Assembly: GCF_014200755.1 (NCBI RefSeq)
Contig: NZ_JACHCM010000001.1
Span: 894,367-958,366 of the forward strand
Source: Rhodanobacter sp. ANJX3
Lineage (GTDB): Bacteria; Pseudomonadota; Gammaproteobacteria; Xanthomonadales; Rhodanobacteraceae
Reading direction: 5' to 3'
Length of the DNA: 64,000 nucleotides
Shown here: positions 3,040 through 64,000 of the stretch, piece after piece
How positions within the stretch are numbered: position 1 is the stretch's first letter
Layout: every line of letters starts with the position of its first letter
Position numbers and translations under genes: made by a program
The notes under the pieces: generated by a model
Database searches by the model: none
Seen by the model: only the letters and a program-made list of their open reading frames with translations
What the model was told of the DNA's origin: nothing

Positions 3040-3873
3040 TCATCCGTCCGTCGACAGCGTCACGGCTTCCCAGGCATACATCTCCGCCGACAGCTGGGCG
3101 AGCTTGGCTCGCACCAACGCCAAGGCATCGCTACCCAGAAGCAGATGCGCTGGCGGCTTTTCGCTGTCGATCAGTTGCAGGATCGCCTTGGCGGCCTTTT
3201 GCGGATCGCCCAGCTGCTTTCCGCTCTTCTCCTGCCTGGCCTGGCGAATGGGATCGAATACCTTGTCATAGTCGGCAATGCGGCGCGGCGACCGCTGCAT
3301 CGACCGACCGGCCCAGTCGGTGCGGAACGAGCCCGGCGCCACCGCCGTCACGGCGATGCCGAAGGGTGCCAGCTCCTTCCCCATGACCTCGGACAAGCCT
3401 TCGAGCGCGAACTTGCTGCCGCAGTAATAGGCAATGCCCGGCATCGTAATGAAACCGCCCATCGAGGTGATGTTGATGATGTGTCCGCGGCGACGCTGCC
3501 GAAAATACGGCAGAAAGGCCTTGGTTACGGCCACCGCGCCGAAAACATTGACGTCGAACTGCTTGCGCATCTCCTCCAGCGGCGACTCCTCCAACACGCC
3601 CTCGTGACCGTAGCCGGCATTGTTCACCAGCACGTCGACCGGCCCGAACGTCGCTTCGACGTCGGCGACGAGCGTATCGATGGACGTCGTGTCGGTAACG
3701 TCAAGCACGTATGCATGCGCCTTGGCCGGATCGAGCGCCTCGAATTCGCGCGCTGCCGCCATGCTGCGCACCGTGCCGACTACGCGGTGTCCGGCAAGCA
3801 AGGCCTCGCGCGCCAGCGCCTGACCGAAACCACTGCTCACGCCGGTAATAAAAAGAGTTTTTGTGGTGCTCAT
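3040..3873 (-). CDS. Short-chain dehydrogenase/reductase
   Basis: A 277-residue classical SDR, probably an NADP(H)-dependent oxidoreductase of the cytoplasm. The Rossmann motif TGVSSGFG is at residues 10-17, NNAG at 84-87, and the catalytic triad is Ser137, Tyr150 and Lys154 (YCGSK context). The ATG at 3873 was chosen because the homologous N-terminus MSTTKTLFITG begins there; the longer open frame upstream is not SDR-like. It is divergently transcribed from an AraC-type regulator 164 bases away, a common pairing that suggests the regulator controls it. The arginine after the second beta strand (VRSM) would favour NADPH. Substrate unknown. Confidence 0.93.
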   Translation of the reverse strand: MSTTKTLFITGVSSGFGQALAREALLAGHRVVGTVRSMAAAREFEALDPAKAHAYVLDVTDTTSIDTLVADVEATFGPVDVLVNNAGYGHEGVLEESPLEEMRKQFDVNVFGAVAVTKAFLPYFRQRRRGHIINITSMGGFITMPGIAYYCGSKFALEGLSEVMGKELAPFGIAVTAVAPGSFRTDWAGRSMQRSPRRIADYDKVFDPIRQARQEKSGKQLGDPQKAAKAILQLIDSEKPPAHLLLGSDALALVRAKLAQLSAEMYAWEAVTLSTDG

Positions 3874-4037
3874 ATGTTTACATCCTGCCGCTGCTTCGAA
3901 TGCCTGACATGCTAGGCGTCGGCAACGCGCAGGCGAATACCGATAACTCTGGCATGCTTGCCTAAAGCTATGAGGCCGCTTGCCTTGTCCTGGCGAAACG
4001 CCGAAAGTTTTCATTCTTCCCTCGCATTGGAGGCTCC

Positions 4038-4979
4038 ATGAGTCGGCAACGAAACGGCGTCCAACGACAGATGATCGCGTTGCTGGACCGACTGACGCCG
4101 GTTGAGGGCTACAACCTCACGCCGCTCGACGATGTGCGGCTGTTACGCTCGAATCGCCGGATGAGCCGCACGCCCGTGCTGTACGACCCCGGCGTCGTCA
4201 TCGTGGTGCAGGGACGCAAGCGCGGCTATCTCGGCGACACCGTCTATCTGTACGACGCGCAGCACTATCTGGTTGTCTCGGTGCCTGTGCCGTTCACCAT
4301 GGAAACCGACGCCACGCTTGGCGAACCGATGCTGGCGATCTATTTGCGGCTGGATTTCCAGATGGCCGCCGACCTTCTGCTGGAACTGGACGAACATCAC
4401 GATGCGCCGCAGACCAGGCCGCGCAGCATGGTGTCCACTCCCATGGACGATGCCCTGGCCGATTCCGTGCTGCGGCTACTGCAAGTACTCGGCTCGCCGC
4501 TCGATACGAAAATTCTCGGCCCGGCGTTGCTGCGTGAAATCTATTTCCGCATCTTCGTGGGCCGACAGGGTGGAACGCTGCGCGCCGCGCTCGCCATGCA
4601 GGGCCCGTTCGGCAAGGTCGCCAAAGCGATACGGAAAATCCACGGCAGCTATGCAAAACGGCTGGCGGTGGAAGATCTCGCCAGCGAGGCGTCGATGAGC
4701 GTGCCCAGCTTTCACGCGCACTTTCGCACCGTTACCAACACCTCGCCGATGCAGTACCTGAAATCCACGCGCCTGCATCAGGCGCGCCTGCTGATGATGC
4801 GCAACGGACTGACCGCGGCTGCCGCGTGTGTCAAGGTCGGCTACGAAAGCAGCTCGCAGTTCAGTCGTGAATTCAAACGCCTTTTCGGCCGCACGCCGGT
4901 GGATGAGGTCGAGCGAATGAAACGCCGTTTCGCGCTGCCGCCCCCCGCCGCGCCATCGGCCTATGTTTCATCGCACTGA
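4038..4979 (+). CDS. AraC-family transcriptional regulator
   Basis: A 313-residue protein with an AraC_N-type N-terminal cupin-like sensor domain (about residues 20-175; GVVIVVQGRKRGYLGD is typical) and a C-terminal pair of helix-turn-helix motifs (about 205-300, ending in VGYESSSQFSREFKRLFGRTP). A strong ribosome site, GGAGG, lies seven bases before the ATG. It resembles the YqhC-like regulators that sit divergently next to oxidoreductase genes, so it likely activates the SDR at 3040-3873 and perhaps itself. The inducer is unknown; aldehydes are plausible by family analogy only. Confidence 0.92.
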   Translation: MSRQRNGVQRQMIALLDRLTPVEGYNLTPLDDVRLLRSNRRMSRTPVLYDPGVVIVVQGRKRGYLGDTVYLYDAQHYLVVSVPVPFTMETDATLGEPMLAIYLRLDFQMAADLLLELDEHHDAPQTRPRSMVSTPMDDALADSVLRLLQVLGSPLDTKILGPALLREIYFRIFVGRQGGTLRAALAMQGPFGKVAKAIRKIHGSYAKRLAVEDLASEASMSVPSFHAHFRTVTNTSPMQYLKSTRLHQARLLMMRNGLTAAAACVKVGYESSSQFSREFKRLFGRTPVDEVERMKRRFALPPPAAPSAYVSSH

Positions 4980-44403: not shown

Positions 44404-44457
44404 CGAAAAAGGGACGGAGGGAATGAACCCAAATGCATGGCCTCCGTCCCCTTTTCG
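44404..44457. repeat. Dispersed palindromic repeat family 1, copy B
   Basis: Arms CGAAAAAGGGACGGAGG (44404-44420) and CCTCCGTCCCCTTTTCG (44441-44457) pair with one mismatch around a 20-base centre. Located between convergent genes, it could also act as a terminator. Confidence 0.8.
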
Positions 44458-45010: not shown

Positions 45011-46519
45011 TCAGCGGCCGGGACCGCCCATCTGCGGTCCCGGGGCCGCTTGCGCGGCTTGGTTCTGTACCTGCATTTGAGCTTGGACCTGCGCGTGTAC
45101 TTGTGCCTGTTGCTGATTGACCTGAGCCATCTGCTGCGTGCTGTGTTCGATAGGCGTGTTGACGGCCTGTGTTGTATTGACGTGAACCACGTTGGGAAAG
45201 CCAAGCCTGGCTTCTTTTTGAGCGGCAAATGCATTCGAGCCATTATGGCTCAAAGCCACGACATCAATCTGCTTCAGGCCAGCTGCCTTACCCTCGACCG
45301 CCAAGACACCGGCCAGGTTCACGCTACGGTGGTCCGACGCGCGGCCGTGCTCGGCATCGATCTTCTTTACGCCGTCGTAGGCTTGCTGAAACAGTCCGTG
45401 GTCGGGGTGCGCGGGATCGTTGAGCAATGGCGACGACCAGCCAGCGGGGTGTCTCTGAGAATACGCTTCACCGGCTGCTGCACCTATGGCGTGCGTGCCG
45501 CGAGAGACTTCCTTCGCAACCTCGTCCGCCGCATGCACCGTGGCGTCGATGCCTCGTGACGCAGCATCGACGGTCGCGTGGTAACCCTTGGCCGCTTCAT
45601 GTTCGACATATTGCGCCGCTCGTTCCGTGGTACGCAGGCCTTCGGTCGCCTTCTCACCGACAAAACGCGCTGTAGCCGCTCCCAGCTCAACGCCCGCCTT
45701 TTGCTCCTCCCAGGGAAGAGACACGACCGTCCGCGCGGCGAGAACGTCGTGACGGTATTGGTCGATCATCCCTTTGTGGGATGCGTATAGCGCCTCGTTT
45801 TCCTTGGAAATAATCGAGTGACCGAGGCGAGGATTATCCGGAAGAAAATTGGTCACGCTGTGCGCGTCCAAGTCCACGCCCTCGATCGGAAGGCGCGGGC
45901 TCAGCGGGCCGTTGGTGTCGTGGTAGCCGGCCTTTTGCAGCCGGTCGATGTCCTGCGGCGACGCATAGATGCGCGTCTCGCCAAAGTGCTGGCTCGCGGC
46001 GCTGACCACGTCGGTAGCGCGCACATAGTTGATGACTTGGTGACCGCCCTCGGGAACGCCCTGGAAAAGACCGGCCGCTCCATACGCGTTAAAGGTTTCT
46101 CCATGCAAGTTGTATTTGTACGCCGTGATTTCGGCCAGCGTGCCGCCGAGAGAGTGCCCGGTGACGGTGGCATGGAAGGGCAAGTGATTCTGCTCGTCGT
46201 AGTTCTTTCCTTGTTCCAGAGCTTTTTTTGTAAACGCCATCGCGTCGGCCGTCTGCACATTGACACCCGCAGTGACCATGCCGATATCGGTCGCGATGTC
46301 CTGGTACTTCATCCTGGCCGCATCGGTTCCACAGTGCGCAATAACGACATCGCCGGTGTCCTCACGAACATAGGCCGTGCCCTGATACCCGGTCAATCGA
46401 TCGTGAGCTTCGTCTAAAACCTTGTAGCGAATCCCGGCCAGGGTAACCTCCTGACCCAGTGAGTGAGTGTTGTAGGCGTCGGCCGCCAACATCGCATGGT
46501 CTTCAGTGCTTAGGGTCAT
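45011..46519 (-). CDS. Antibacterial lipase effector with XVIPCD-like secretion domain
   Basis: A 502-residue protein without a signal peptide. The N-terminal part is a class 3-type lipase: VVIAHCGTD (57-65), nucleophile elbow GHSLGG with Ser123, and an Asp/His pair further on (RATD 167-170; LDAH 217-220 and GHSI candidates). Residues 280-355 are a helical linker. Residues 368-460 match the XVIPCD of Xanthomonadales type IV effectors: HPDHGLFQQAYDGVKKID, NLAGVLAVEGKAAGLKQID, NAFAAQ, VNTTQAVNTPIEHS, followed by a Gln-rich tail (QMAQVNQQQAQVHAQVQAQM). Such proteins are injected into rival bacteria. It overlaps the upstream lipoprotein gene by four bases (ATGA), the typical immunity/effector coupling. 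Confidence 0.9.
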   Translation of the reverse strand: MTLSTEDHAMLAADAYNTHSLGQEVTLAGIRYKVLDEAHDRLTGYQGTAYVREDTGDVVIAHCGTDAARMKYQDIATDIGMVTAGVNVQTADAMAFTKKALEQGKNYDEQNHLPFHATVTGHSLGGTLAEITAYKYNLHGETFNAYGAAGLFQGVPEGGHQVINYVRATDVVSAASQHFGETRIYASPQDIDRLQKAGYHDTNGPLSPRLPIEGVDLDAHSVTNFLPDNPRLGHSIISKENEALYASHKGMIDQYRHDVLAARTVVSLPWEEQKAGVELGAATARFVGEKATEGLRTTERAAQYVEHEAAKGYHATVDAASRGIDATVHAADEVAKEVSRGTHAIGAAAGEAYSQRHPAGWSSPLLNDPAHPDHGLFQQAYDGVKKIDAEHGRASDHRSVNLAGVLAVEGKAAGLKQIDVVALSHNGSNAFAAQKEARLGFPNVVHVNTTQAVNTPIEHSTQQMAQVNQQQAQVHAQVQAQMQVQNQAAQAAPGPQMGGPGR

Positions 46520-47121
46520 TGACTGACTTCCTTGGCAGAAAGTGTGATGACGAAGAAGTCACTTCGATACTTTTTGACTGTCTCGGACAACTCCTGCCCG
46601 CCATCGCCGTAAGTTTGGTCGCTGCCGTTCGAAAGAGCTTTAATCGGCAAATAAAGATCCACCGACTTTTGACTTTGCAAATCACTCAGACGGTAACTCG
46701 GAGTAAACGTTGTGCCGTTGCCCTTGATCTTGAAAGAGGCCATAGCCGACGACATGATCCAGTGGCACACGCCCATGCCGTCATAATCGGCATCCAGAAA
46801 ATAATCCGTGACCACCGTTCCCTTGTAAGTGTGGTCGTCCACCTTTTTGAGCTCGAACGGGATGAACTGCGCCAGGTTGCTTTGATGCCCGCTGAAAGCA
46901 TCGGGGCGCACACATGTGCTGCTGTTTTGCACCTCGTAGATCATCGTTCCCCCGGCTGTATCGAACCCCCTGGGCGCGCCATGAACCGTGATGGTGATCT
47001 CGTAGCGCTGTTTGGCGTTGGGGTTGGGTTTGATGTCGGGAGTCTTCATGGTCGAGGCGCCACATCCGGAAGTGATCAGGGTCAGAGAGAAAAGCAGCAC
47101 GGCGGTCACGCGGCTAAGCAT
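46516..47121 (-). CDS. Lipoprotein, putative immunity protein A of the lipase effector
   Basis: A 201-residue lipoprotein (signal MLSRVTAVLLFSLTLITSGC, lipobox around Cys20). The mature domain begins KTPDIKPNPNAKQRYEITIT. AGGA precedes ATG 47121. It overlaps the effector start, which strongly suggests that this copy is the matching immunity protein, acting in the periplasm where the injected lipase works. The first 135 residues are almost identical to copy B (47500-48105), whereas the last 65 differ widely. Confidence 0.85.
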   Translation of the reverse strand: MLSRVTAVLLFSLTLITSGCGASTMKTPDIKPNPNAKQRYEITITVHGAPRGFDTAGGTMIYEVQNSSTCVRPDAFSGHQSNLAQFIPFELKKVDDHTYKGTVVTDYFLDADYDGMGVCHWIMSSAMASFKIKGNGTTFTPSYRLSDLQSQKSVDLYLPIKALSNGSDQTYGDGGQELSETVKKYRSDFFVITLSAKEVSQ

Positions 47122-47320
47122 GGAATTCCTGCCTCGATGGAGAGTCTTGGTGAAGGGTGCGACCAGCGGGCGCCCGGAAACAGCTGGATAGTTCACAGCT
47201 CGGCGACGTGTTAGCCATGCTTCGATCATGCATCGGCGGTGCTCCATGCTCCGTTCGGTTTGAGTGTAGCGCCAAATACAGCAAACTGCCTTTCCCGAGG
47301 ACCGGGTTTATTTACAAACG
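47122..47320. repeat. Duplicated leader of the immunity genes
   Basis: The leader of copy A (47122-47320) is repeated upstream of copy B at 48106-48310, about 984 bases away, including GGAATTCCTGCCTCGATGGA and CCGTTCGGTTTGAGT. It marks the extent of the tandem duplication and probably carries the promoter. Confidence 0.8.
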
Positions 47321-47499: not shown

Positions 47500-48105
47500 T
47501 CATGGCATCACCTTTCGGGAAGACAGCGTCATGTAGAAAACCGCGTTGCGTATCTTCGGCGATACATCCGCCAAGGATTGGCCTCCGTCGCCATATTTCT
47601 GATGGTCGTCGCTTGAGAGTTCGGCCAGAGGAAAGTAGACATCGACCGATCTCTCTGCCACCACATCCTCATGTAGGATGCTCGGGCCAAAATCCACGCC
47701 GTTGCCATTGATCTTGAACGAGCTCAAGGCCGACGACATGATCCAATGGCACACGCCCATGCCGTCATAATCGGCATCCAGAAAATAATCCGTGACCACC
47801 GTTCCCTTGTAAGTGTGGTCGTCCACCCTTTTGAGCTCGAACGGGATGAACTTCGCCAGATTGCTTTGATGCCCGCTGAAAGCATCGGGGCGCACACAGG
47901 TGCTGCTGTTTTGCACCTCGTAGATCATCGTTCCCTCGGCTGTATCGAACCCCCTGGGCGCGCCATGAACCGTGATGGTGATCTCGTAGCGCTGTTTGGC
48001 GTTGGGGTTGGGTTTGATGTCGGGAGTCTTCATGGTCGAGGCGCCACATCCAGAGGTGATCAGGACCAGAGAAAAAAGCAGCACGGCGGTCACGCGGCTA
48101 AGCAT
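47500..48105 (-). CDS. Lipoprotein, putative immunity protein B
   Basis: A 201-residue paralogue of immunity protein A with the same signal peptide and lipobox (LITSGC). Residues 1-135 are nearly identical, then the sequences diverge abruptly (SSFKINGNGVDFGPSILHED here against ASFKIKGNGTTFTPSYRLSD). The duplication includes the leader upstream. It probably protects against a different effector variant, as seen with arrays of 'orphan' immunity genes. It is separated from copy A by a repeat and a gene fragment, so it may be transcribed on its own. Confidence 0.82.
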   Translation of the reverse strand: MLSRVTAVLLFSLVLITSGCGASTMKTPDIKPNPNAKQRYEITITVHGAPRGFDTAEGTMIYEVQNSSTCVRPDAFSGHQSNLAKFIPFELKRVDDHTYKGTVVTDYFLDADYDGMGVCHWIMSSALSSFKINGNGVDFGPSILHEDVVAERSVDVYFPLAELSSDDHQKYGDGGQSLADVSPKIRNAVFYMTLSSRKVMP

Positions 48106-48351
48106 GGAATTCCTGCCTCGATGGAGAGTCTTGATGACGGGCGCGGCTAGAGCGCGCGCCTGGAAACAGCTGGATAGTTCACAGCTCGGGGAAGTGTTAA
48201 CCATGCTCAGGTCATGCATCGGCGGTGCTCAATGCTCCGTTCGGTTTGAGTCTAACGCCAACTCCAGCGATCCACCTTTCCCAAGGGACCGGTTTTATTT
48301 ACAAAAACGAAATGAAGTAAACCGGCCTCCTTTTTCGCCACCGTTATTTTT

Positions 48352-53785: not shown

Positions 53786-54391
53786 TCAGTGAACCCGAGA
53801 GCTTTCTCGCTCGATACGGTAGACGGCCTGCGCTTCGCCTACGCCGGTGGGCGGATGGCGTGGTGGGGTGAGGCGCTGGGATTCGATCTGGTCGATGAGG
53901 TCGCGTACGGCGCGGGCGTCGGTGAAGATGGCTTGGCCTAGCAGGGACAGGGTGTGGTCGGCGAGTTCGGTGGCGGGGGCGGTGGTGATGACGTCGCCGT
54001 GGGCGGTGATCATGTCGATCAGGCGGTTGAGGGTGTCGACCTGGTCGAGGGTGATGCCGAAGCGGTAGCGCTCGCCAACGTCGTCGGGCGTTGCCTCTGC
54101 GGCATAAGGCGTTTCGTCGGCGGCAGGCGCCGCGTCGCTTTCGGCGCGGTAGGCTGGAAACGAGAGATCGCTCAGCACCAGGCCCATCTGCTCCACCAGA
54201 AATTCCAGGCAGATGGCTACCTGCTCCGCATTGATCTTGGGAATGCCTTCCTGCTCGGCGTCCGGCGTGCGCGGTTGCGCGATATGCGAGAGAAACTCGG
54301 CGTAGTCGCGCAGTTTCTGCAGCCGGCGCTGGCTGGTCTCCGGCAGAAAATAACCCATCGTGTCCCGATCATCCGTATCGAACGTTGACAT
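53786..54391 (-). CDS. XAC0095-like protein
   Basis: A 201-residue soluble, acidic protein of a family restricted to Xanthomonadales. An N-terminal unit (MGYFLPETSQRRLQKLRDYA) is followed by a linker and a second similar unit (YRFGITLDQVDTLNRLIDMI, ATELADHTLSLLGQAIFTDA). A very strong ribosome site AGGAGG precedes ATG 54391, and a leader of about 170 bases with a terminator-like hairpin lies upstream. A fragment of a sister gene is at 47325. Function unknown. Confidence 0.8.
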   Translation of the reverse strand: MSTFDTDDRDTMGYFLPETSQRRLQKLRDYAEFLSHIAQPRTPDAEQEGIPKINAEQVAICLEFLVEQMGLVLSDLSFPAYRAESDAAPAADETPYAAEATPDDVGERYRFGITLDQVDTLNRLIDMITAHGDVITTAPATELADHTLSLLGQAIFTDARAVRDLIDQIESQRLTPPRHPPTGVGEAQAVYRIERESSRVH

Positions 54392-54562
54392 GGCCGCCTC
54401 CTGATTCCATCCAAGTGCCCGTCCACGGCATGACGACGGACGGGAAGTCGGGAGGCTAGAAACCGCAGACAGCCGGCGGGCGTATTCCCCTTGCGGGTGT
54501 TGTATTAGCCGCCCTCCCGACGCAGGCATCGCGTCGGTTGCACCTACAAAAAGCGTAGGCAC

Positions 54563-54709: not shown

Positions 54710-55834
54710 TTATTTGGTGTTGAGGACAGGTGCAGCACGAGCATGTGGATATCCCGCATGAACGCTGAAATTCACTCTCTGTCCCACAGCCGGCTTCTGA
54801 TTCCCAAAGTATTCGCTTCGATGGTAAAACCAAGAGTCTGCCTGAACGTCGTCCTTGATGTAACCGGTCTGGCTAGCCGCGCCACTTGAATAGCGAACAC
54901 CGTAACTAGTAATGGTCCCTCGGCGTCTTTCACTAAAGGCGTAGCACCACTCGCCGCAAATCCGCGCAACTTCCGCCGCACTCGGTCGAGCTGCAGGAGC
55001 GACTTGAATACAGGACTGAATAAGGGACCAAATTTGATCTTCGAGCGGGCCCGTCGACGCATGCACTCCAAAGATTGCCGGCTTTGTAAGATTCGCTTGA
55101 CCGAGATTTTCTGCGCGCACGACCGCCGCAATAGCCGCTCGACCGGTGCCAAAGGGGGGAGTCCCACTTACAAGTTGGTAAGCGATGCACCCTAATGCCC
55201 ATACATCCATCGGCTGTCCTGCTGTCTTCCAATTTGCCCAGCACTCTGGGGCCATATATGGAACGGCACCCAGCAACGTATTTGATGAGGTGAGTGTTGA
55301 TTCATCCTGCTCGAATTCTTCAATTTCAGCCGCAATCTGGTGTTCTGCAAGTTTGGCAATGCCGAAATCAGTAAGCTTGATCGAAGTAATGCCTGCGTCG
55401 CGCGAAGTCATAATGTTGCTTGGCTTCAGATCCCTATGACAAATTCCAACCCGGTGAGCCTCCATTAGTGCACGCGCAATGTTATGGATCACGTGCGCCG
55501 CTAAGCACGGGTCTAGAAATTCGAATTCATCCCGAAGACGCTTCGCGAGATCGAGGCCTTCAACATACTCTTCGATCAGAAACGTTAATTTTTCATCTTC
55601 ATAGTAGTCAAGTGTCGCGGCTACGTTATGGTGACTGATACGTGCACCCATTTCAGCACCGCGTCGAAACCGGCGATCTTTCACTCCACCTTTTGGAGTT
55701 TTGAGAACGACCGCTCGATCAAGTGCATTGTCAAAGCATGCGTAGACTTCCTGCATGCCCCCCGCATTTAGATACCCGTTGATTGCATAGCGACCAACCA
55801 AAAGAGTCCCGTCTTTGAGCATAGGGTTGTTCAC
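54710..55834 (-). CDS. Ser/Thr protein kinase 2 of a PP2C-kinase-kinase operon
   Basis: A 374-residue Hanks-type kinase. Lys45 in AVVLKTP, the catalytic loop CHRDLKPSN (132-140), TDFGIAK (155-161) and the MAPECW motif are all present, so it should be active; the Gly-loop is degenerate (NAGGMQEVYACFD). About 100 residues follow the kinase core. The start is a GTG at 55834: GGAG lies eight bases before it and it overlaps the stop of kinase 1 by four bases (GTGA). No membrane helix, so cytoplasmic. It is the last gene of the operon. GC content is visibly lower than in flanking chromosomal genes. Confidence 0.9.
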   Translation of the reverse strand: MNNPMLKDGTLLVGRYAINGYLNAGGMQEVYACFDNALDRAVVLKTPKGGVKDRRFRRGAEMGARISHHNVAATLDYYEDEKLTFLIEEYVEGLDLAKRLRDEFEFLDPCLAAHVIHNIARALMEAHRVGICHRDLKPSNIMTSRDAGITSIKLTDFGIAKLAEHQIAAEIEEFEQDESTLTSSNTLLGAVPYMAPECWANWKTAGQPMDVWALGCIAYQLVSGTPPFGTGRAAIAAVVRAENLGQANLTKPAIFGVHASTGPLEDQIWSLIQSCIQVAPAARPSAAEVARICGEWCYAFSERRRGTITSYGVRYSSGAASQTGYIKDDVQADSWFYHRSEYFGNQKPAVGQRVNFSVHAGYPHARAAPVLNTK

Positions 55835-56910
55835 AGCACTAACTCCGGGTAGGACGACTGGAATGTAACCCACTCTCTGCTTGAGCCAGCAGTCATAGCT
55901 CCGAACGTGAGCACACAAGATTCAGGTAACGTGGCACCTGGCTGTGCGACAACATTGTTGACGAAAACGTTACCCGTAACGAAACCTATTAGGAAATAAA
56001 GTCCATCATAGAAGACTTTAATTTCACCCATCTGTGGAATCGCGATGCTGACTTGCGGACTGGACGAAGAGAGTTCGTAGATGGAGGTTCTTCCCTGAAC
56101 AAATATTCCCCTGTGAAGGTTGCGGAGCAAATATCTTTCTAGCTTTGAGCTGATGTCTTGTGCTGATGGTCTGTTCTGCGGGGAACGGCTTAAGCAGTCA
56201 TCAATTAACTTAACGATTTCGCCAGGAAAAGCCCCCTTAAAAATCGAATCAATAGATGGAGCGCAACCAGACTGCTGTGGCGGCCGCTCCAGCAGCACCT
56301 GGGGAAATTGATTGGCAGCAAGCGCCCAGCAACAGATCCCCAACGCGTAAATGTCCATGCTGTAATTTATCTTTACACCAGGTTGATATAGCTCCGGCGC
56401 TGCATAGACAATGGAGCCTCGATTTTCGCGCGTGTGATATCCAGTTCCTGCGCAAGAGATTCCAAAGTCGAAAAGCTTTAATATTCCTGATCCCGACTCG
56501 CGAATATTTTCGAGTTTAATATCTCGATGGACTATGCCTACTTCGTGTAAATCCCGCAGAGCCGTTGCGATCTGGTAGATGAGCCGCAGGTACATCTGTG
56601 GATCCGAGAGAGCTTCCAGGTGAAAATGCCGGTAATCGCGACCGTTCAACTTCTCAATCACTACGCCGCAAACTTGGCCATTTGCGTCACAAACAATGTC
56701 ATATATCTCTACGACGTGACGAGACCGGGCTTTCGACAGTCCACGGATCTCGTTGGTCAGCTGCAAATTGTTCGCAGGGTCGTGCATCGTTTTGAAGAGA
56801 ACGGCACGATCTAAGTAGGTATCGTGGACCGGGATGACGCTTCCGTATCCGCCGACTATAGAAGGAGCGGCTAGGTCGGTCCTATACCTGTCCGGTAGTT
56901 GCATCGTCAT
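55831..56910 (-). CDS. Ser/Thr protein kinase 1 with FHA-like C-terminal domain
   Basis: A 359-residue Hanks-type kinase (about 15-265): Lys40 in RAVLFKTM, Glu54, catalytic loop VHRDIKLEN (127-135), LFDFGIS (146-152) and YAAPELY. Residues 270-359 form a beta-rich domain (EIKVFYDGLYFLIGFVTGNV, FVNNVVAQPGATLPESCVLT) similar in layout to an FHA phosphothreonine-binding domain, which would let it dock onto phosphorylated partners. It overlaps the phosphatase gene upstream (ATGA) and kinase 2 downstream (GTGA). Cytoplasmic, AT-richer than the chromosomal average. Confidence 0.9.
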   Translation of the reverse strand: MTMQLPDRYRTDLAAPSIVGGYGSVIPVHDTYLDRAVLFKTMHDPANNLQLTNEIRGLSKARSRHVVEIYDIVCDANGQVCGVVIEKLNGRDYRHFHLEALSDPQMYLRLIYQIATALRDLHEVGIVHRDIKLENIRESGSGILKLFDFGISCAGTGYHTRENRGSIVYAAPELYQPGVKINYSMDIYALGICCWALAANQFPQVLLERPPQQSGCAPSIDSIFKGAFPGEIVKLIDDCLSRSPQNRPSAQDISSKLERYLLRNLHRGIFVQGRTSIYELSSSSPQVSIAIPQMGEIKVFYDGLYFLIGFVTGNVFVNNVVAQPGATLPESCVLTFGAMTAGSSREWVTFQSSYPELVL

Positions 56911-58073
56911 TCCTTAGATGGACCATCATCTTCCGACAAGCCTTTCACGACAGCTCTGACTCTGCCTTTTGGCGCGCTTGCTACTGGAGTGAGCTTTAGT
57001 TGCCTTTCATTGTCTTCTTTTGCCGCTCGGCTTCGCGCAACTCGCTTCGGTCCTTTTTTTCCAGGCGCTACGTCGGGAACTCTATCTTTCGAATTCGAAC
57101 TTTGATCCAAACGCTGATGCAATACGACCTTGGTGTCACAGATCCATGCAGAAATAACATTGCGCGCGGAAGTCTCGATTCGGACGGAATTGTTGAGCTT
57201 GCCTAACTCGTGAATATTCCGGATCGCAATGATAGAGGCGTTGTCGAGATCGCCGGACCACGATGCTAGCGCGAGAGTCCGACGTACTAGTTCCGCGGGA
57301 GATCCTGTGTTCTTTGCGATCGCGTTAAATCCACTCTTCGAGCCTCTCCAAGATCCATCGCTTGCAAGTACCGCTCCGCCGTCAGGAAATTGTTTTTCAC
57401 CTAGCACCGATATTCGTAGGTCCTGAGAACTCCTTCCCGACTCACCCAACGCCTGCGAAAGACTGCCACGGAGACCTCTAGCATCTAAGACTCCAACATC
57501 TTTCATTTCTAAGTCACGTAGTTCATTTTCCAAAGTGTCATCAACGCTGACTTGGACGTAACCAAAGCCCTGGCGCCAGCTGAAAATTCGGCTATCACCG
57601 ACGTTAGCTGCCGCTATCTCTCCTGCTGAAGAGGCCAGCATGACGCTTGCTGTTGTGGTGCCAGACCCTCGCAAGGCCTGTCGTATCGCTTCGTCCATAT
57701 CGCGAAGTAACCTAGTCACCAATGCGGGGAGTGGGGTTCGAGCATTTAGAAGGCCAAGCTGCTCGACTAATTTCACTATCGCAATCGTCGCCGCCTCATC
57801 GCCGCGTTCAGATCCGCCGACTCCGTCACATACAGCAGCTACAGTTAAAACATCTCCGTAAGCGCACGAGATCTGTGCGAAGATAGCTCTATCCTCGTTT
57901 CTAGATCTCTTCTGCCCTGCATGGATGCCTATTGCGGTACGGAATTGGTCAATTGCCTTCACGGCAGATACATTCCAAGACACGGCGGACACTTCTGCGA
58001 GCAGTTGCATCCCTAGCTCGCTGGCGAATAGATTCGGGGTCATATGTGGTTTTTCCATTTCAGGCATCAGCAT
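56907..58073 (-). CDS. PP2C-family protein phosphatase
   Basis: A 388-residue phosphatase, first gene of the operon. The metal-binding motifs are RSRNEDRAIF (57-66), VCDGVGG (81-87), NVGDSR (157-162), LASDGSW (236-242) and DLDNAS (275-280), all intact. A C-terminal extension of about 100 residues ends in a Lys/Arg-rich tail (GKKGPKRVARSRAAKEDNER). It should dephosphorylate Ser/Thr residues placed by the two kinases. Start codons at 58073 and 58067 are both possible (GGTGG just upstream). Cytoplasmic. Confidence 0.9.
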   Translation of the reverse strand: MLMPEMEKPHMTPNLFASELGMQLLAEVSAVSWNVSAVKAIDQFRTAIGIHAGQKRSRNEDRAIFAQISCAYGDVLTVAAVCDGVGGSERGDEAATIAIVKLVEQLGLLNARTPLPALVTRLLRDMDEAIRQALRGSGTTTASVMLASSAGEIAAANVGDSRIFSWRQGFGYVQVSVDDTLENELRDLEMKDVGVLDARGLRGSLSQALGESGRSSQDLRISVLGEKQFPDGGAVLASDGSWRGSKSGFNAIAKNTGSPAELVRRTLALASWSGDLDNASIIAIRNIHELGKLNNSVRIETSARNVISAWICDTKVVLHQRLDQSSNSKDRVPDVAPGKKGPKRVARSRAAKEDNERQLKLTPVASAPKGRVRAVVKGLSEDDGPSKE

Positions 58074-58638: not shown

Positions 58639-60195
58639 TCATTCCAATTTTGAGACGATGACAGTTCGAAGATCATCAAAATCATTTGAGAATGCTTTAC
58701 TAACGACCTCGGATAGCTTTTGAAGGCACTGATCTTTAGTAAGTCCGACGTGCATCGCTATTTCGTGGAACTCGTTATGTTTTCCGGCCTGCAGACCGTA
58801 TTCGATAACATCCGCCACTTCGTCAATTTCAATCAATAGTGATTCCGCAATTAAATTTGGCACGCCCTTGCATTTCTGCAAAATCCAGGCCTCTGGCCAA
58901 GTATCACCCGGAAGGTACGTTGAACTGCTAGAAAACCAATTAGCAAAAGTTGGCGTTGGATTTTCAGCCATCTTTTTAGCGTGGTCTAAATTAGCCGCCT
59001 CGTTCACTCTCTGATCCCCATCATAAACAGCTAGGATCTGCGTAACAGCGCCTCTCACATGGAACGCAGCCAACTGCCTAGAAATCGCCGACGAAGAACC
59101 TATGATCGTAATATCAGTTCTCGATCTAATCGAAGCCGGCAAAATGGCCTGCAAGACAGATTTTGCAACATCATCTTCAACAAATATGTCTAGCTCTTTC
59201 TGCCCTGAAGCCCCCATCTTATTAAACGCAAACTCGGGAGAAATCCCCGCTGTTATCTTTGTCTTCCCTCCGACAGCCTCAACAAAAAATCGAGCCTCAT
59301 CGGGCAAACATTCAAATATTTCCTTCGAATGAGTTGTGCAAATAACTTGAGTACTCATTTCCTTACAAACTTCTTTTAGCTTTTTCATAAACAGCTTTTG
59401 AGCCTTGGCATGAAGACCCAACTCAATTTCATCCATGACAAGAAGCGCACCCTTTCCGGCGGAATATAACGTAGAAAATATTTCGAATAATGCATTTTCG
59501 CCGGCACCCATGTTAAATCCAGAGTAAATCACAGTGCCACACTGGACTAAAGGAAGGCTATATCTCGCATGCTCTAGGTATCTGAAGTTGTCATATTGTT
59601 TTCCTAATATAAATCCAACGATATCTTTTACCTTAGACTCCCATCCTTTCGCAGGAACAGCCGAAAACGACCTTGAGTACGACTTCGACTGACTTCTTTC
59701 GATATGAGGAACAATTCTTTCAATGCCAAGAAAGACAACATTTCTATCTATCCTTTCGTCATAATCATTCCATTTTCCGCCTTTCTTCTTTCGTCTTGCC
59801 TGAAATCCAATACCTTTTCCGTTTGGCAAATTTTTGGATTCTTTCCAACCATCATGCGCGATTGAATAAAATATCTCTATGCCTTGAGGCGTAACTTCGT
59901 TTGTGTGCTGAATAAAGAAATCAGAAAAAGTGTAGTAACTATTCTTTCTTTTTGGAAGTTTATATCCATCTAATTTATTATGGAAAGCACAGCATGCCAT
60001 TGCAAGAATGGTAGATTTTCCAGCACCATTTACACCTGAGAACGCCACTATTGGATAGTCAAAACTAAGCGATAGTGAATTTATTCCCCTAAGAGCACCC
60101 TTAGTAAGCTTAATACTTCTGAGCAGCGCCTTTGATAAGTCATTCATGAACCAAGATCTTAAATCCTTGTCTATTTGACTTTCCCTATACTTCAT
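58639..60195 (-). CDS. OLD-like ATPase with TOPRIM nuclease domain
   Basis: A 518-residue protein that is strikingly AT-rich for this window. The ABC/SMC-like ATPase has Walker A GVNGAGKST (54-62), a signature-like segment GFNMGAGENALFEIF (226-240), Walker B LLVMDEIELGLH (251-262) and the switch His289 in TTHSKE. It is followed by a TOPRIM domain: Glu340 in IFVEDD and Asp392-x-Asp394 in VYDGDQ. This order is that of OLD (overcoming lysogenisation defect) nucleases, which act in phage defence. No UvrD-type partner (as in Gabija) is adjacent, so it would be a single-gene member. GGAGG precedes ATG 60195. Confidence 0.9.
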   Translation of the reverse strand: MKYRESQIDKDLRSWFMNDLSKALLRSIKLTKGALRGINSLSLSFDYPIVAFSGVNGAGKSTILAMACCAFHNKLDGYKLPKRKNSYYTFSDFFIQHTNEVTPQGIEIFYSIAHDGWKESKNLPNGKGIGFQARRKKKGGKWNDYDERIDRNVVFLGIERIVPHIERSQSKSYSRSFSAVPAKGWESKVKDIVGFILGKQYDNFRYLEHARYSLPLVQCGTVIYSGFNMGAGENALFEIFSTLYSAGKGALLVMDEIELGLHAKAQKLFMKKLKEVCKEMSTQVICTTHSKEIFECLPDEARFFVEAVGGKTKITAGISPEFAFNKMGASGQKELDIFVEDDVAKSVLQAILPASIRSRTDITIIGSSSAISRQLAAFHVRGAVTQILAVYDGDQRVNEAANLDHAKKMAENPTPTFANWFSSSSTYLPGDTWPEAWILQKCKGVPNLIAESLLIEIDEVADVIEYGLQAGKHNEFHEIAMHVGLTKDQCLQKLSEVVSKAFSNDFDDLRTVIVSKLE

Positions 60196-60301: not shown

Positions 60302-60520
60302 TCAAAACATCAGCAACTTCAGCCCCTGCTCCTTCGCAAACTCGATAGCGTCTTCATACCCCGCGTCCGCTTGCCGCATCACGCTGTACCCGAATCGTTC
60401 CACAACACGCGCGCAATGCGCTTGTCGGCTTCTTGCGTGCCATCGCAGACGATGCCGCTGTGCTGCGATTAGCCTATACCGATAACGCCGTGATGCAGGC
60501 TAACCCGCGCCGCTTCGCCC
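60302..60520 (-). pseudogene. hutU: Displaced, decayed hutU 3' end (copy 1)
   Basis: The minus strand reads VSLHHG, a stop, [25 protein letters not shown], and after a frameshift ADAGYEDAIEFAKEQGLKLL. These align with the last 72 codons of the intact hutU at 62863 but differ at many codons, and a premature stop, a two-codon deletion and a frameshift are present. It abuts the stop of the gene at 60523. Confidence 0.85.
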
Positions 60521-60522
60521 GC

Positions 60523-61221
60523 CTACCCAGCACAACTCGGATAAGGCATCCGCTCCCCAGGAACAATCGGACACAGCTTGATGGGCTGCAGGTGTTGCAA
60601 CCGCGCTCGCCAGGCCGCCTCGTCCAACGCGATAGGCTGCGCCGAGGCCGGGCTGCGTACCGCCCACTGCACGCTGTAATCGTCGTTGCTTCCTCTGATT
60701 TCTAAAATCAGCGTGGACTCGCTGTGCATGGAACCGTCGGCCGTGACAGATCCGCAGCTCGCTACCATGGCGTAGCCGTTGGCGCCGCCGAGCTGGACCT
60801 CGCCTAGATTGAGGTCGCTAAAGGATGTAGGACAGGCTGAGTGGAAGCGCTTGGCCAGATCGGCCGCCAGAAACTGCGGCGTGATGTTGAGCCGGGAGGC
60901 TAGGCCCTTGGCACCGGTGACGGTGATCATCTGCGTCCACTGCGCCGTGCTTTCGCCCCCGGGCACTGACTCATGGATGTAGGACTGGCCGCCGTCGTCG
61001 AGGTGTTCGAATACCGGCCGAAAATTGCTCGGCGGGCTGATAAGCACCAGCTGGCTGAAGATTGGCGCGATCTGTTTCAGCGAACCGTGAGTTTGAGCGT
61101 ATTTATTCAGTTGATCCGACGACGCCGGCCGCCATGGCGACGACTGCGCCAATACCAAACCACCCCCCGTGAACGACCCGATAGACAGCATTCCCGCTGC
61201 AAGCCACGCCATGGTCCTCAT
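60523..61221 (-). CDS. Secreted protein of unknown function (hutU-tail cassette 1)
   Basis: A 232-residue protein with a signal peptide (MRTMAWLAAGMLSIGSFTGG, cleavage near LAQ). The mature part is mixed alpha/beta with three paired cysteines (SACPTSF, ASCGSV, KLCPIVP, PSCAG) and a Ser/Gly-rich middle. GGGGAG precedes ATG 61221. It is enclosed between two decayed hutU ends, so it appears to have been inserted behind hutU as a single-gene unit. I recognise no family. Confidence 0.75.
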   Translation of the reverse strand: MRTMAWLAAGMLSIGSFTGGGLVLAQSSPWRPASSDQLNKYAQTHGSLKQIAPIFSQLVLISPPSNFRPVFEHLDDGGQSYIHESVPGGESTAQWTQMITVTGAKGLASRLNITPQFLAADLAKRFHSACPTSFSDLNLGEVQLGGANGYAMVASCGSVTADGSMHSESTLILEIRGSNDDYSVQWAVRSPASAQPIALDEAAWRARLQHLQPIKLCPIVPGERMPYPSCAG

Positions 61222-61312
61222 GTGCTCTCCCCTGTGTTTGATGCTCCGATATCATCTTAGTTACACCCACCCCGCAGCGTAACCGCGTGTCCGTTCTATG
61301 GTCGAGCGTGGC

Positions 61313-61384
61313 TCAGACCATCGGCAACTTCAACCCCTGCTCCTTCGCGCACTTGATCGCCTGGCCATAGGCTGCGTCCGCATC
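61313..61384 (-). pseudogene. hutU: Displaced hutU 3' end (copy 2)
   Basis: Twenty-four codons on the minus strand, DADAAYGQAIKCAKEQGLKL and PMV plus stop, align with the last codons of intact hutU ([21 protein letters not shown]) and with copy 1. It is cut at its upstream side exactly at palindromic repeat copy D. Confidence 0.85.
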
Positions 61385-61438
61385 CAAAAAGGGAGCGGAG
61401 GAAATGAACCCAAATTAATTACGTCGTCCCCAATTTCG
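61384..61438. repeat. Dispersed palindromic repeat family 1, copy D
   Basis: CCAAAAAGGGAGCGGAGGAA at one end and CGTCGTCCCCAATTTCG at the other; the centre AATGAACCCAAATTAATT matches copies B and C. It joins directly to the hutU tail fragment. Confidence 0.75.
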
Positions 61439-61508
61439 CCCATTTTCGGAGCGGTCCGCACGTAACCGATGGTTTGTACCACCCGACGTTGAGTATACGG
61501 CCGTCTCG

Positions 61509-62798
61509 TCACACCACCAGCAGGTCATCGGAGGTTGACGGGTTCTTTGCGCTGATGGTCAAACCGGGAAGGACGATATGCTCACGGATGCCGCTTGCCG
61601 GAGATGCCAGTGACATGGGGGAGTTCCAGCTCGACTGTGGGTACGCACGGAAGATATCGCCTTGCTGGAAGATATACGTATTCGGCGGCAACGTGCAGGC
61701 ATGCGCGCCGTCCGCCGTGACTTCAATGGTTGCGGCAGAGAAGGAACAGCTACCAACCGGTGGTGTGAACCGAAACGGGATTGCGGGCTTTCTCGATGTT
61801 ATGTAGCCAGGACTGAAGACGACTCGAAAAGCGTGATTTAGGAGCGACGCGTTCGCGCTGTCTCGGACGTATGCCGGCTGATGGAAGATGATGCCATCCA
61901 CCAGCGCATCCGAACGGGAGAGGGTCTGCTCTGCTAGCGTCCTGAGATAATCGATATCCGCCAAAACATGGACGCGCATAAATAAGAGGTTCCATATTCC
62001 CGCACTGCGACCCAGTGGACGGAACTTATCAGCTGCCGCGCGCAGGTTTCTCTGGAACCGATCCTGTTCCCGCGGTGAAGCGGGTGCGACTACCGAAACG
62101 GTATCCGAGGTCTCAGTCGGCGCTAGTGTTACAGGGTCGGTGAGGGACGCCACCTTCAAGTACAAGGACGGCTTCAGAGAGATTGGCTCGCCGACGACCG
62201 TGCTGCGTTCACTCTTGATGTGCAGGAGCGCCAGCTCGAAATCATCTGGCGACATCGGCAGATCTGACCAAAGATACAGGGCAAGATTCTTGCGTTCGCG
62301 GGCCAACCGCTCGCGCCACAGCTTGCGTAAATGCGCCGACTGACGTGCGAAGGCCTTCGCTTCGTCGGTGATGTCATGATTCTTGACCGAAAGGTAGTAG
62401 ATATCGCCCTCCGACGAAGATGCGCTGAAATCGTAGGCCGGTGTTTTTGGTGGCGCCGGGATTAGCCGCTGGGAGCCAAGGCCGACAGTGGGGTAAACGA
62501 TGATCTCGGTGACCAGTCCGTGGCTCGTGGGTGACTTGCGAATGGTTCGAACCTTGTCCTTGAGCCAGGCATCGTGACCATCCTCACGCAGCAACAGGAT
62601 GGCCGCACCCAATGTGTACAACTCCAGATTGGCCAGATGATCAAAGCGCCGCCAGATTTTTTGCAGGCGTGCATTACCGTTTGGCTGTGACAGCCAAATC
62701 ACCCCGAATGTGTCTTCCACTGCTTGGAAGGCGCTGGCGGCAAGGGCGGGCGTTGAGACGCCATCGAGGATGCGGGCTGGCTTTTTGGAGCGGGGCAT
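61509..62798 (-). CDS. Hypothetical protein, possible PD-(D/E)xK-like nuclease (hutU-tail cassette 2)
   Basis: A 429-residue soluble protein. Residues about 25-130 are helical and end in a strand pair; AYDFSASSSEGDIYYLSVKN (about 128-147) looks like the D...(x)xK core of the PD-(D/E)xK fold, with Ser-Val-Lys where E-x-K is usual, followed by a long helix (RKLWRERLARERKNLALYLW). The C-terminal half is beta-rich and unrecognised. ATG 62798 is preferred to 62804 because AGG lies nine bases upstream. It sits between intact hutU and the displaced hutU tail 2, apparently as a single inserted gene. A nuclease or restriction-like role is only a hypothesis. Confidence 0.65.
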   Translation of the reverse strand: MPRSKKPARILDGVSTPALAASAFQAVEDTFGVIWLSQPNGNARLQKIWRRFDHLANLELYTLGAAILLLREDGHDAWLKDKVRTIRKSPTSHGLVTEIIVYPTVGLGSQRLIPAPPKTPAYDFSASSSEGDIYYLSVKNHDITDEAKAFARQSAHLRKLWRERLARERKNLALYLWSDLPMSPDDFELALLHIKSERSTVVGEPISLKPSLYLKVASLTDPVTLAPTETSDTVSVVAPASPREQDRFQRNLRAAADKFRPLGRSAGIWNLLFMRVHVLADIDYLRTLAEQTLSRSDALVDGIIFHQPAYVRDSANASLLNHAFRVVFSPGYITSRKPAIPFRFTPPVGSCSFSAATIEVTADGAHACTLPPNTYIFQQGDIFRAYPQSSWNSPMSLASPASGIREHIVLPGLTISAKNPSTSDDLLVV

Positions 62799-62862
62799 GT
62801 TCATCGACCTGCTTACGTAATAGAGCGGTGCGGGAAAACGAAAGAGGCTATCCCCCACCATA

Positions 62863-64000
62863 TCAAGCCATCGGCAACCTCAACCCCTGCTCCCTTGCAC
62901 ATTCGATCGCCTCCTCATACCCCGCATCCGCATGCCGCATCACGCCGGTGCCCGGATCGTTCCACAGCACCCGCGCAATCCGCTTGTCCGCCTCGGCCGT
63001 CCCATCGCACACGATGACAATGCCGCTGTGCTGCGAATACCCCATTCCCACCCCACCGCCATGATGCAACGACACCCACGTCGCGCCACCTGCAACATTC
63101 AACATCGCATTGAGCAGCGGCCAGTCGGACACGGCATCGCTGCCATCCTTCATCGCCTCGGTCTCGCGGTTCGGTGAAGCCACCGACCCCGAGTCCAGAT
63201 GATCGCGGCCAATAACTACCGGCGCCTTCAGCTCCCCGTTGCGCACCATCTCGTTAAACGCCAACCCAAGCTTATCCCGCAGCCCTAACCCGACCCAGCA
63301 GATGCGTGCGGGCAACCCCTGAAAGCTGATGCGCTCTTTGGCCATGTCGAGCCAGTTGTGCAAGGCCTTGTCGTCGGGGATGAGTTCCTTGACCTTGGCG
63401 TCGGTCTTGTAGATGTCTTCGGGGTCGCCGCTGAGCGCGACCCAGCGGAACGGGCCGATACCGCGGCAGAACAGCGGGCGCACATAAGCGGGCACGAAAC
63501 CGGGGAAGGCGAAGGCGTTGTCGCAGCCGATGTCCTTGGCCATCTGGCGGATGTTGTTGCCGTAGTCGAAGGTGGGGATGCCCTGCGCGTGAAAGGCGAG
63601 CATGGCTTCGACGTGGGTGCGCATGGACTGCTTGGCCGCGTCGCGCGTGCCTTCGGGGTCGGCCTTGCGGCGCTCCAGCCACTGCTCCACCGTCCAGCCC
63701 TGCGGCAGGTAGCCGTTGACCGGATCGTGCGCGCTGGTCTGGTCGGTGACGGCATCGGGGCGCACGCCGCGCTTGATCAGCTCGGGCAGGATGTCGGCGG
63801 CGTTGCCGAGCAGCGCGATGGATTTGGCTTCGCCGGCCTCGGTGTATGTTTTGATGCGCGCCAGCGCGTCGTCCAGGTCGCTGGCCTGCTCGTCGACGTA
63901 GCGCGTCTTGAGGCGGAAATCGATGCGGCTCTGTTGGCATTCGATATTGAGGCTGCACGCGCCGGCGAGCGAAGCGGCCAGCGGCTGCGCCGCGCCCATG
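62863..64000 (-). CDS. hutU: Urocanate hydratase (5' part outside window)
   Basis: The C-terminal 378 residues of urocanase, running off the right edge; the full enzyme is about 555 residues. It converts urocanate to imidazolonepropionate in histidine degradation in the cytoplasm. Visible conserved segments include [62 protein letters not shown] and [15 protein letters not shown] at the NAD-binding region. The coding sequence is intact to its stop at 62863. Two diverged copies of its 3' end lie downstream. Confidence 0.97.

Follow-up and report, generated by a model that had tools for sequence, protein, structure and literature searches.

The 3' end of hutU as a probable integrase-free accretion hotspot for small gene cassettes in Rhodanobacter and its relatives

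The site immediately behind hutU, the urocanase gene, is occupied by different small groups of genes in different Rhodanobacter genomes, and displaced copies of the hutU 3' end (tails) lie among these genes in several of them. We consider it fairly probable that the hutU 3' end serves, in Rhodanobacter and its relatives, as a hotspot at which small cassettes accrete without an integrase, and that the cassettes are gained by recombination anchored in hutU. The analysis started from a stretch of 64,000 nucleotides of Rhodanobacter sp. ANJX3 (hereafter the window), for which a preliminary description had proposed that incoming DNA repeatedly replaced the end of hutU and pushed the old end outward.

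The window contains the 3' two thirds of the resident hutU (62863..63999, minus strand; Pfam Urocanase and Urocanase_C), which runs past the window edge; the frame is intact, with 565 aa in the assembly and its stop end at 62863. Outward from hutU follow a 429-aa gene, a second hutU 3' end (T2), a 232-aa gene, a third hutU 3' end (T3) and a gene for an OLD-type ATPase, and the three hutU ends (60301, 61312 and 62862) form direct repeats (D1). T2 (61313..61385, minus strand) consists of 24 codons in intact frame (DADAAYGQAIKCAKEQGLKLPMV), and T3 (60302..60522, minus strand) of about 72 codons decayed by gaps, a frameshift and stops. Both were identified by BLAST: with hutU as query against its own genome, T3 was matched at E=5e-41 and T2 at E=7e-10, far above chance, and the next best match genome-wide was at 0.026. 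Two extra hutU ends behind an intact hutU, one of 24 codons and one with a stop and a frameshift, had been claimed beforehand, and the claim was right in each of these details and in its coordinates.

The first cassette gene (61509..62798, minus strand; 429 aa) has a single relative among 234 family genomes, 46% identical and not at hutU; since this relative has equal length, the gene most likely starts at 62798. Full-length relatives with 24-29% identity are found on plasmids of Burkholderia and enterobacteria, and the predicted structure of the protein (mean pLDDT 34) is too low in confidence for use. The second cassette gene (60523..61221, minus strand; 232 aa), which has a probable signal peptide, is matched in 11 of the 234 genomes, and a degenerate REP-like palindrome, recognised from its sequence (61386..61436), abuts the 5' edge of T2. 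The next gene outward of T3 (58639..60195, minus strand) encodes an OLD/AAA_15-type ATPase (Pfam AAA_15, 1.3e-15) and is a candidate defence gene, with HEC-04 as the nearest PADLOC model (3.6e-44). Farther out lie accessory genes of the zone for two protein kinases and a PP2C phosphatase (54710..58073, minus strand), which are consecutive and possibly constitute a single signalling or defence module, and a 258-aa gene (53786..54562, minus strand), a common outer marker whose family occurs 3' of hutU in nine other genomes. Tandem paralogues are present at 46516-47247 and 47500-48219, with 95% identity over 200 nt in long near-identical stretches. Gene order varies upstream of hutU as well (L084:5134-8262; loci L167-L202), and a segment with a TonB-type receptor located there is common to the window, G041 and G026. 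No tRNA occurs in the 64,000-nt window, and tRNA-linked integration was rejected on this ground.

Of 45 Rhodanobacter genomes, 41 yielded hutU, and comparison of the DNA 3' of it (38 loci) revealed a constant core flank with content that differs between genomes. Nothing is shared in the first 500 nt past the hutU stop in 25 of the 38 loci, and the situation in which all relatives would have the same order with the tails is thereby absent; seven loci share one toxin-antitoxin-like module (122 aa plus a 103-aa HTH_3 protein), and four share another. The first gene after hutU is co-oriented with it in 34/38 loci (p=6e-7), a bias that has faded by the fifth gene. Genes beside hutU match PADLOC models of a retron RT-TIR, OLD, a fused type I restriction enzyme, PDC-M61AB, PDC-S49/KAP, NsnB/AriA-like ATPases, a dGTPase and TIR, and Pfam families found among them include NACHT, NB-ARC and RES. 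Non-defence occupants are present too, such as an MvdD-like ATP-grasp gene (G016) and an Asp/Arg hydroxylase (Dokdonella), and several hutU-adjacent genes are without a family match. Counted at the hutU loci alone, defence or toxin-antitoxin genes are common behind hutU, and the repeated occupation of the site by different defence systems is what characterises a core defence hotspot. In addition, there are shared cassettes with 97-98% DNA identity in genomes that have 86-92% identity between their hutU ends. For example, two Rhodanobacter species with hutU ends only 92% alike have in common an OLD-type ATPase cassette (L054, 1021-2805, and L056, 1111-2895, counted from the hutU stop) that is 97.9% identical, suggesting recent transfer. 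The hotspot that the preliminary description had postulated is thus shared across the family, with content different by genome, and had if anything been understated; the defence content and the co-orientation are additions to that description, as are two features treated below, the mosaicism of the hutU 3' end and the presence at the joints of palindromes linked to Y1 transposases.

A search with a profile built from the 3'-terminal 420 nt of hutU detected displaced hutU ends downstream, in hutU orientation in every case, in seven Rhodanobacter genomes: G000 (two), G016, G040, G015, G007, G004 and G019. The matches are short in G004 (E=2e-4) and G019 (E=0.008), and the G019 tail is secured by its flanking DNA, which is a known post-hutU module. 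A family survey added displaced ends in Dokdonella, Dyella lipolytica and one further genus; most genomes have no recognisable tail. G005, considered as a further tail genome, was rejected, its two contigs being one overlapping hutU end, and G014 is undecidable for tails because a contig break lies inside hutU. The control consisted of 586 genes of these loci, the 3' 400 nt of each being used as a query within its own locus; repeated co-oriented displaced ends were found for hutU only. The control gave one other clear single case, in G003, where a 62-nt displaced copy of a gene's 3' end (L071, 3178-3239) lies 0.6 kb downstream of the gene itself (3864-4478; both counted from the start of the compared hutU stretch).

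Conserved gene 3' ends are the usual att sites of integrative elements, and elements that used the hutU 3' end as an att site and later lost their integrases might have made the tails; the tail of about 30 nt in G019 is as long as an att core. However, the tails start at about 30, 71, 75, 220 and 514 nt before the hutU stop, and the conserved crossover point that the preliminary description had suggested looking for was not found; there is no constant direct repeat, unlike the situation at integrase att sites. Moreover, no Phage_integrase was seen near hutU in the 45 genomes among the matches listed, no integrase among the listed families of 115 downstream proteins, and none in the window cassettes by Pfam, in agreement with the earlier claim that integrase is lacking; a rare integrase may nevertheless be present at hutU loci outside the matches listed, and IS and Y1 transposases do occur in some of the loci. 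As the cassettes comprise only one to three genes and the hutU 3' end has been replaced over hundreds of nucleotides, we regard former integrative elements as a quite improbable source of the tails.

The origin of the tails is best read from genomes in which the displaced DNA can be followed. In G021, G035 and G037, a toxin-antitoxin module is located directly 3' of hutU. The same module starts 910 bp out in G019, preceded by a hutU end of about 30 nt (GCAGGGGTTGAAGTTGCCGATGGTGTGA), and lies 16.6 kb out in G015, behind a longer hutU end. Such pushed-out modules are predicted by insertion at the hutU end with the old end retained, and together with the tails in seven genomes they bear out the repeated accretion and outward displacement that had been proposed. 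In the window, T3 is 78% identical to the resident hutU end and 84% to that of the sister species G041, and T2, which is only about 71 nt long, is 80% and 87% identical, respectively; the tails do differ in sequence and are not simple recent duplicates, as previously stated. If hutU had simply been duplicated locally, with later insertions and decay, this would account for the tail of G016, whose best match is the hutU of that genome itself (92.8% over 514 nt), and in this case such an origin could still hold. It is contradicted for the window, where both tails are nearer another species than the resident end and a single tandem duplication of the resident hutU is therefore absent, and it is at odds with the post-hutU DNA that trails the displaced tail in G019 and G015 and with gene-plus-tail units on a contig without hutU and in another genus (see below). 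As a general explanation, local duplication appears highly improbable.

The 3' end of hutU is itself a mosaic. In a comparison beginning 450 nt upstream of the window edge, the window and its sister G041 are 95-99% identical up to about 400 nt before the hutU stop and 81-87% identical thereafter (95.7%, then 86.4%), and the last ~400 nt of the window hutU are, judging from this alignment, a recombinant segment. Similarly, G043 and G012 are 98.3% identical and then 84-88%, with the drop about 540 nt before the hutU stop. Third-position identity over all hutU pairs declines from 84% to 68-70% toward the 3' end; in this comparison, which was confined to hutU, recombination is seen along the whole length of the gene, so that the 3' diversity gradient is partly regression to the mean.

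Units of gene and tail also occur away from the site, and parts of one window unit (palindrome-T2-spacer-232aa-T3; 60302..61420, minus strand) recur in other genomes. The 232-aa gene with T3 (60302-61252) has a homologous unit on contig C3 of G026, a contig without hutU, in which the similarity extends from about 30 nt before the start codon of the 232-aa gene to the tail end; the neighbours of this copy are accessory themselves, being found in only three other genomes, where the left flank is missing. An overlapping part (60508-61420, palindrome-T2-spacer-232aa) recurs on contig C25 of G199, a genome of the genus (g18) that includes Dyella lipolytica, with the gene internally deleted and the unit bordered by an Rhs-like gene on one side and a Thoeris-type TIR gene on the other. 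The joint between palindrome and T2 is kept in this Dyella-group genome, and its T2 has its best match in hutU of Rhodanobacter (88-89%) rather than in that of Dyella. Tails therefore also travel as parts of cassettes, sometimes into other species, and T2 in the window need not have arisen when the 429-aa gene arrived there; T2, the 232-aa gene and T3 look like one cassette. Of the interpretation given in the preliminary description, accretion, displacement and the hotspot hold, whereas one tail left by each gene at this site, and a fixed crossover, are not supported.

Related palindromes (GGGGTCAGAGTGCACTTTC..., GGGGTCAGGTTCACTTA..., GGGGACGGAGGTAATTA...) are concentrated behind hutU, with a density of 0.44 per kb at 2-4 kb after the gene versus 0.01 upstream. 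Across 20 genomes, 18/144 and 28/143 whole-genome matches, counted by hand, fall in the 20 kb after hutU, which make up about 0.5% of the sequence. They lie within 1.5 kb of 19 of 41 Y1_Tnp genes, often at about -160/+665, and fold into strong hairpins; because they bracket Y1_Tnp genes, the arrangement of REP/RAYT elements, we take them as REP-like elements of Y1 transposases, and a GTTRRRY core was not seen in them by eye. With its A-rich and T-rich ends, the palindrome superfamily would also fold as two-way terminators. Sites were noted at L040-L076 downstream of hutU and at 44451, 58578 and 61386-61436 in the window, with few clusters per genome. A larger role of Y1 (IS200-like, RAYT) transposases is the main rival to hutU-anchored recombination: the palindromes would bound the cassettes and carry them in single-stranded form, and the hutU tails would be bystanders trapped between palindromes. 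Palindromes do abut or interrupt the tails in the window, G016, G040 and G007 and adjoin the edges of cassettes shared at 97-98%, and, sitting at several joints, they could be the real agents. Nevertheless, T3 and the tails of G015 and G004 have no palindrome at the joint, the start of the zone at the hutU stop and the mosaicism of hutU are left unexplained, and other palindrome clusters lie far from hutU, all of which makes Y1 transposases unlikely as the agents of the whole pattern. Dense second clusters off hutU, in G038 (C1:3079599-3095589, with four Y1_Tnp genes) and G009 (C1:2358923-2364227), are probably further cassette hotspots.

Taken together, the variable tail lengths, the lack of a listed integrase, the mosaic ends and the retained junctions fit hutU-anchored recombination. 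According to this model, donor DNA consisting of a hutU 3' end and the genes following it would undergo homologous recombination inside the resident hutU, which would stay functional and gain the donor 3' end. The outer joint would be made via microhomology or a repeat somewhere in the old hutU 3' end, either by homology-facilitated illegitimate recombination or by a single crossover of a recircularised fragment, and the old end would remain on the outer side as a tail whose length varies, followed by the former downstream DNA. A gene between two hutU ends could then be passed on as a homology-flanked unit, sometimes landing elsewhere. The recombination would presumably depend on RecA, a point that we infer, as we do the way in which the DNA enters and how exactly the outer joint is made. 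Between the two routes to the outer joint, homology-facilitated illegitimate recombination is favoured, since the replaced hutU segment of the window (~400 nt) exceeds both T2 and T3 in length; however, a palindrome cuts T2, and no clear answer comes from the tail of G016. This process involves one homologous end and one illegitimate end with 3-10 bp microhomology, and in conjugation experiments partial duplication of a gene end (lacZ) by single crossover was the usual product (PMC3240628). Possible signs of it at hutU are the mosaic gene on one side and one clear 8-nt microhomology (GGTTGAAG), at which a cassette edge meets a hutU tail in G007/G009; the other joints are too old or beside palindromes. 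Those experiments concerned laboratory constructs, whereas repeated natural events at one locus across genera are seen here.

Integrons line up small cassettes, mostly in one orientation, behind a single fixed point, and in the minimal mobile elements of Neisseria variable genes are swapped between conserved flanks by transformation. The hutU site resembles the former in its stack of small cassettes with mostly shared orientation and the latter in its variable genes exchanged between conserved flanks, but differs from both in that the recurring element is a piece of hutU itself; neither an integron integrase nor an attC motif was noted at it. We tentatively raise the possibility that hutU 3' ends are portable recombination sites, so that a gene followed or bordered by a hutU end would be a cassette moving by homology from one hutU locus to another, and now and then to other places. 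This would form an array like that of an integron, with the recombination of the cell itself and a housekeeping gene in place of an integrase; if so, the tails would record the order of acquisition, and Y1-transposase palindromes would cut and join the cassette edges. With REP/RAYT elements the site has in common palindromes bracketing Y1_Tnp genes in Rhodanobacter, and differs in that these are interspersed in a cassette hotspot as well and adjoin several hutU tails.

Hotspots in which a core gene borders a zone of fast turnover with no recognisable integrase have been described, with an excess of recombination and diversity in that gene, and double recombination at the flanking core genes was proposed for them (PMC5635113, 2017). 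hutU is likewise a core gene bordering fast gene turnover, with no integrase among the matches listed, but it leaves duplicate ends, so that the insertion steps and their order are readable, and its gene-plus-tail units also leave the site. In Pseudomonas aeruginosa, cDHS1 and cDHS2 have a constant core flank and many defence systems, are not obviously part of mobile elements and were proposed to arise by recombination at the flanks (Johnson et al., 2023, PMC10250203). The hutU site shares with them the constant core flank and the different defence systems; the flanking genes and the genus differ, and displaced ends of the flanking gene are unmentioned in the part of that account drawn on here. 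No hutU or urocanase hotspot was found in the literature with the terms used, and hutU is unnamed in the papers searched.

The finding bears on how defence genes come to accumulate at fixed places in the chromosome without the help of mobile elements. With the ordered scars of hutU, single acquisition steps can be read, donors can be traced and the recombination model is directly testable. In addition, the site is practical for finding new defence genes, as the gene adjacent to hutU differs in almost every species.
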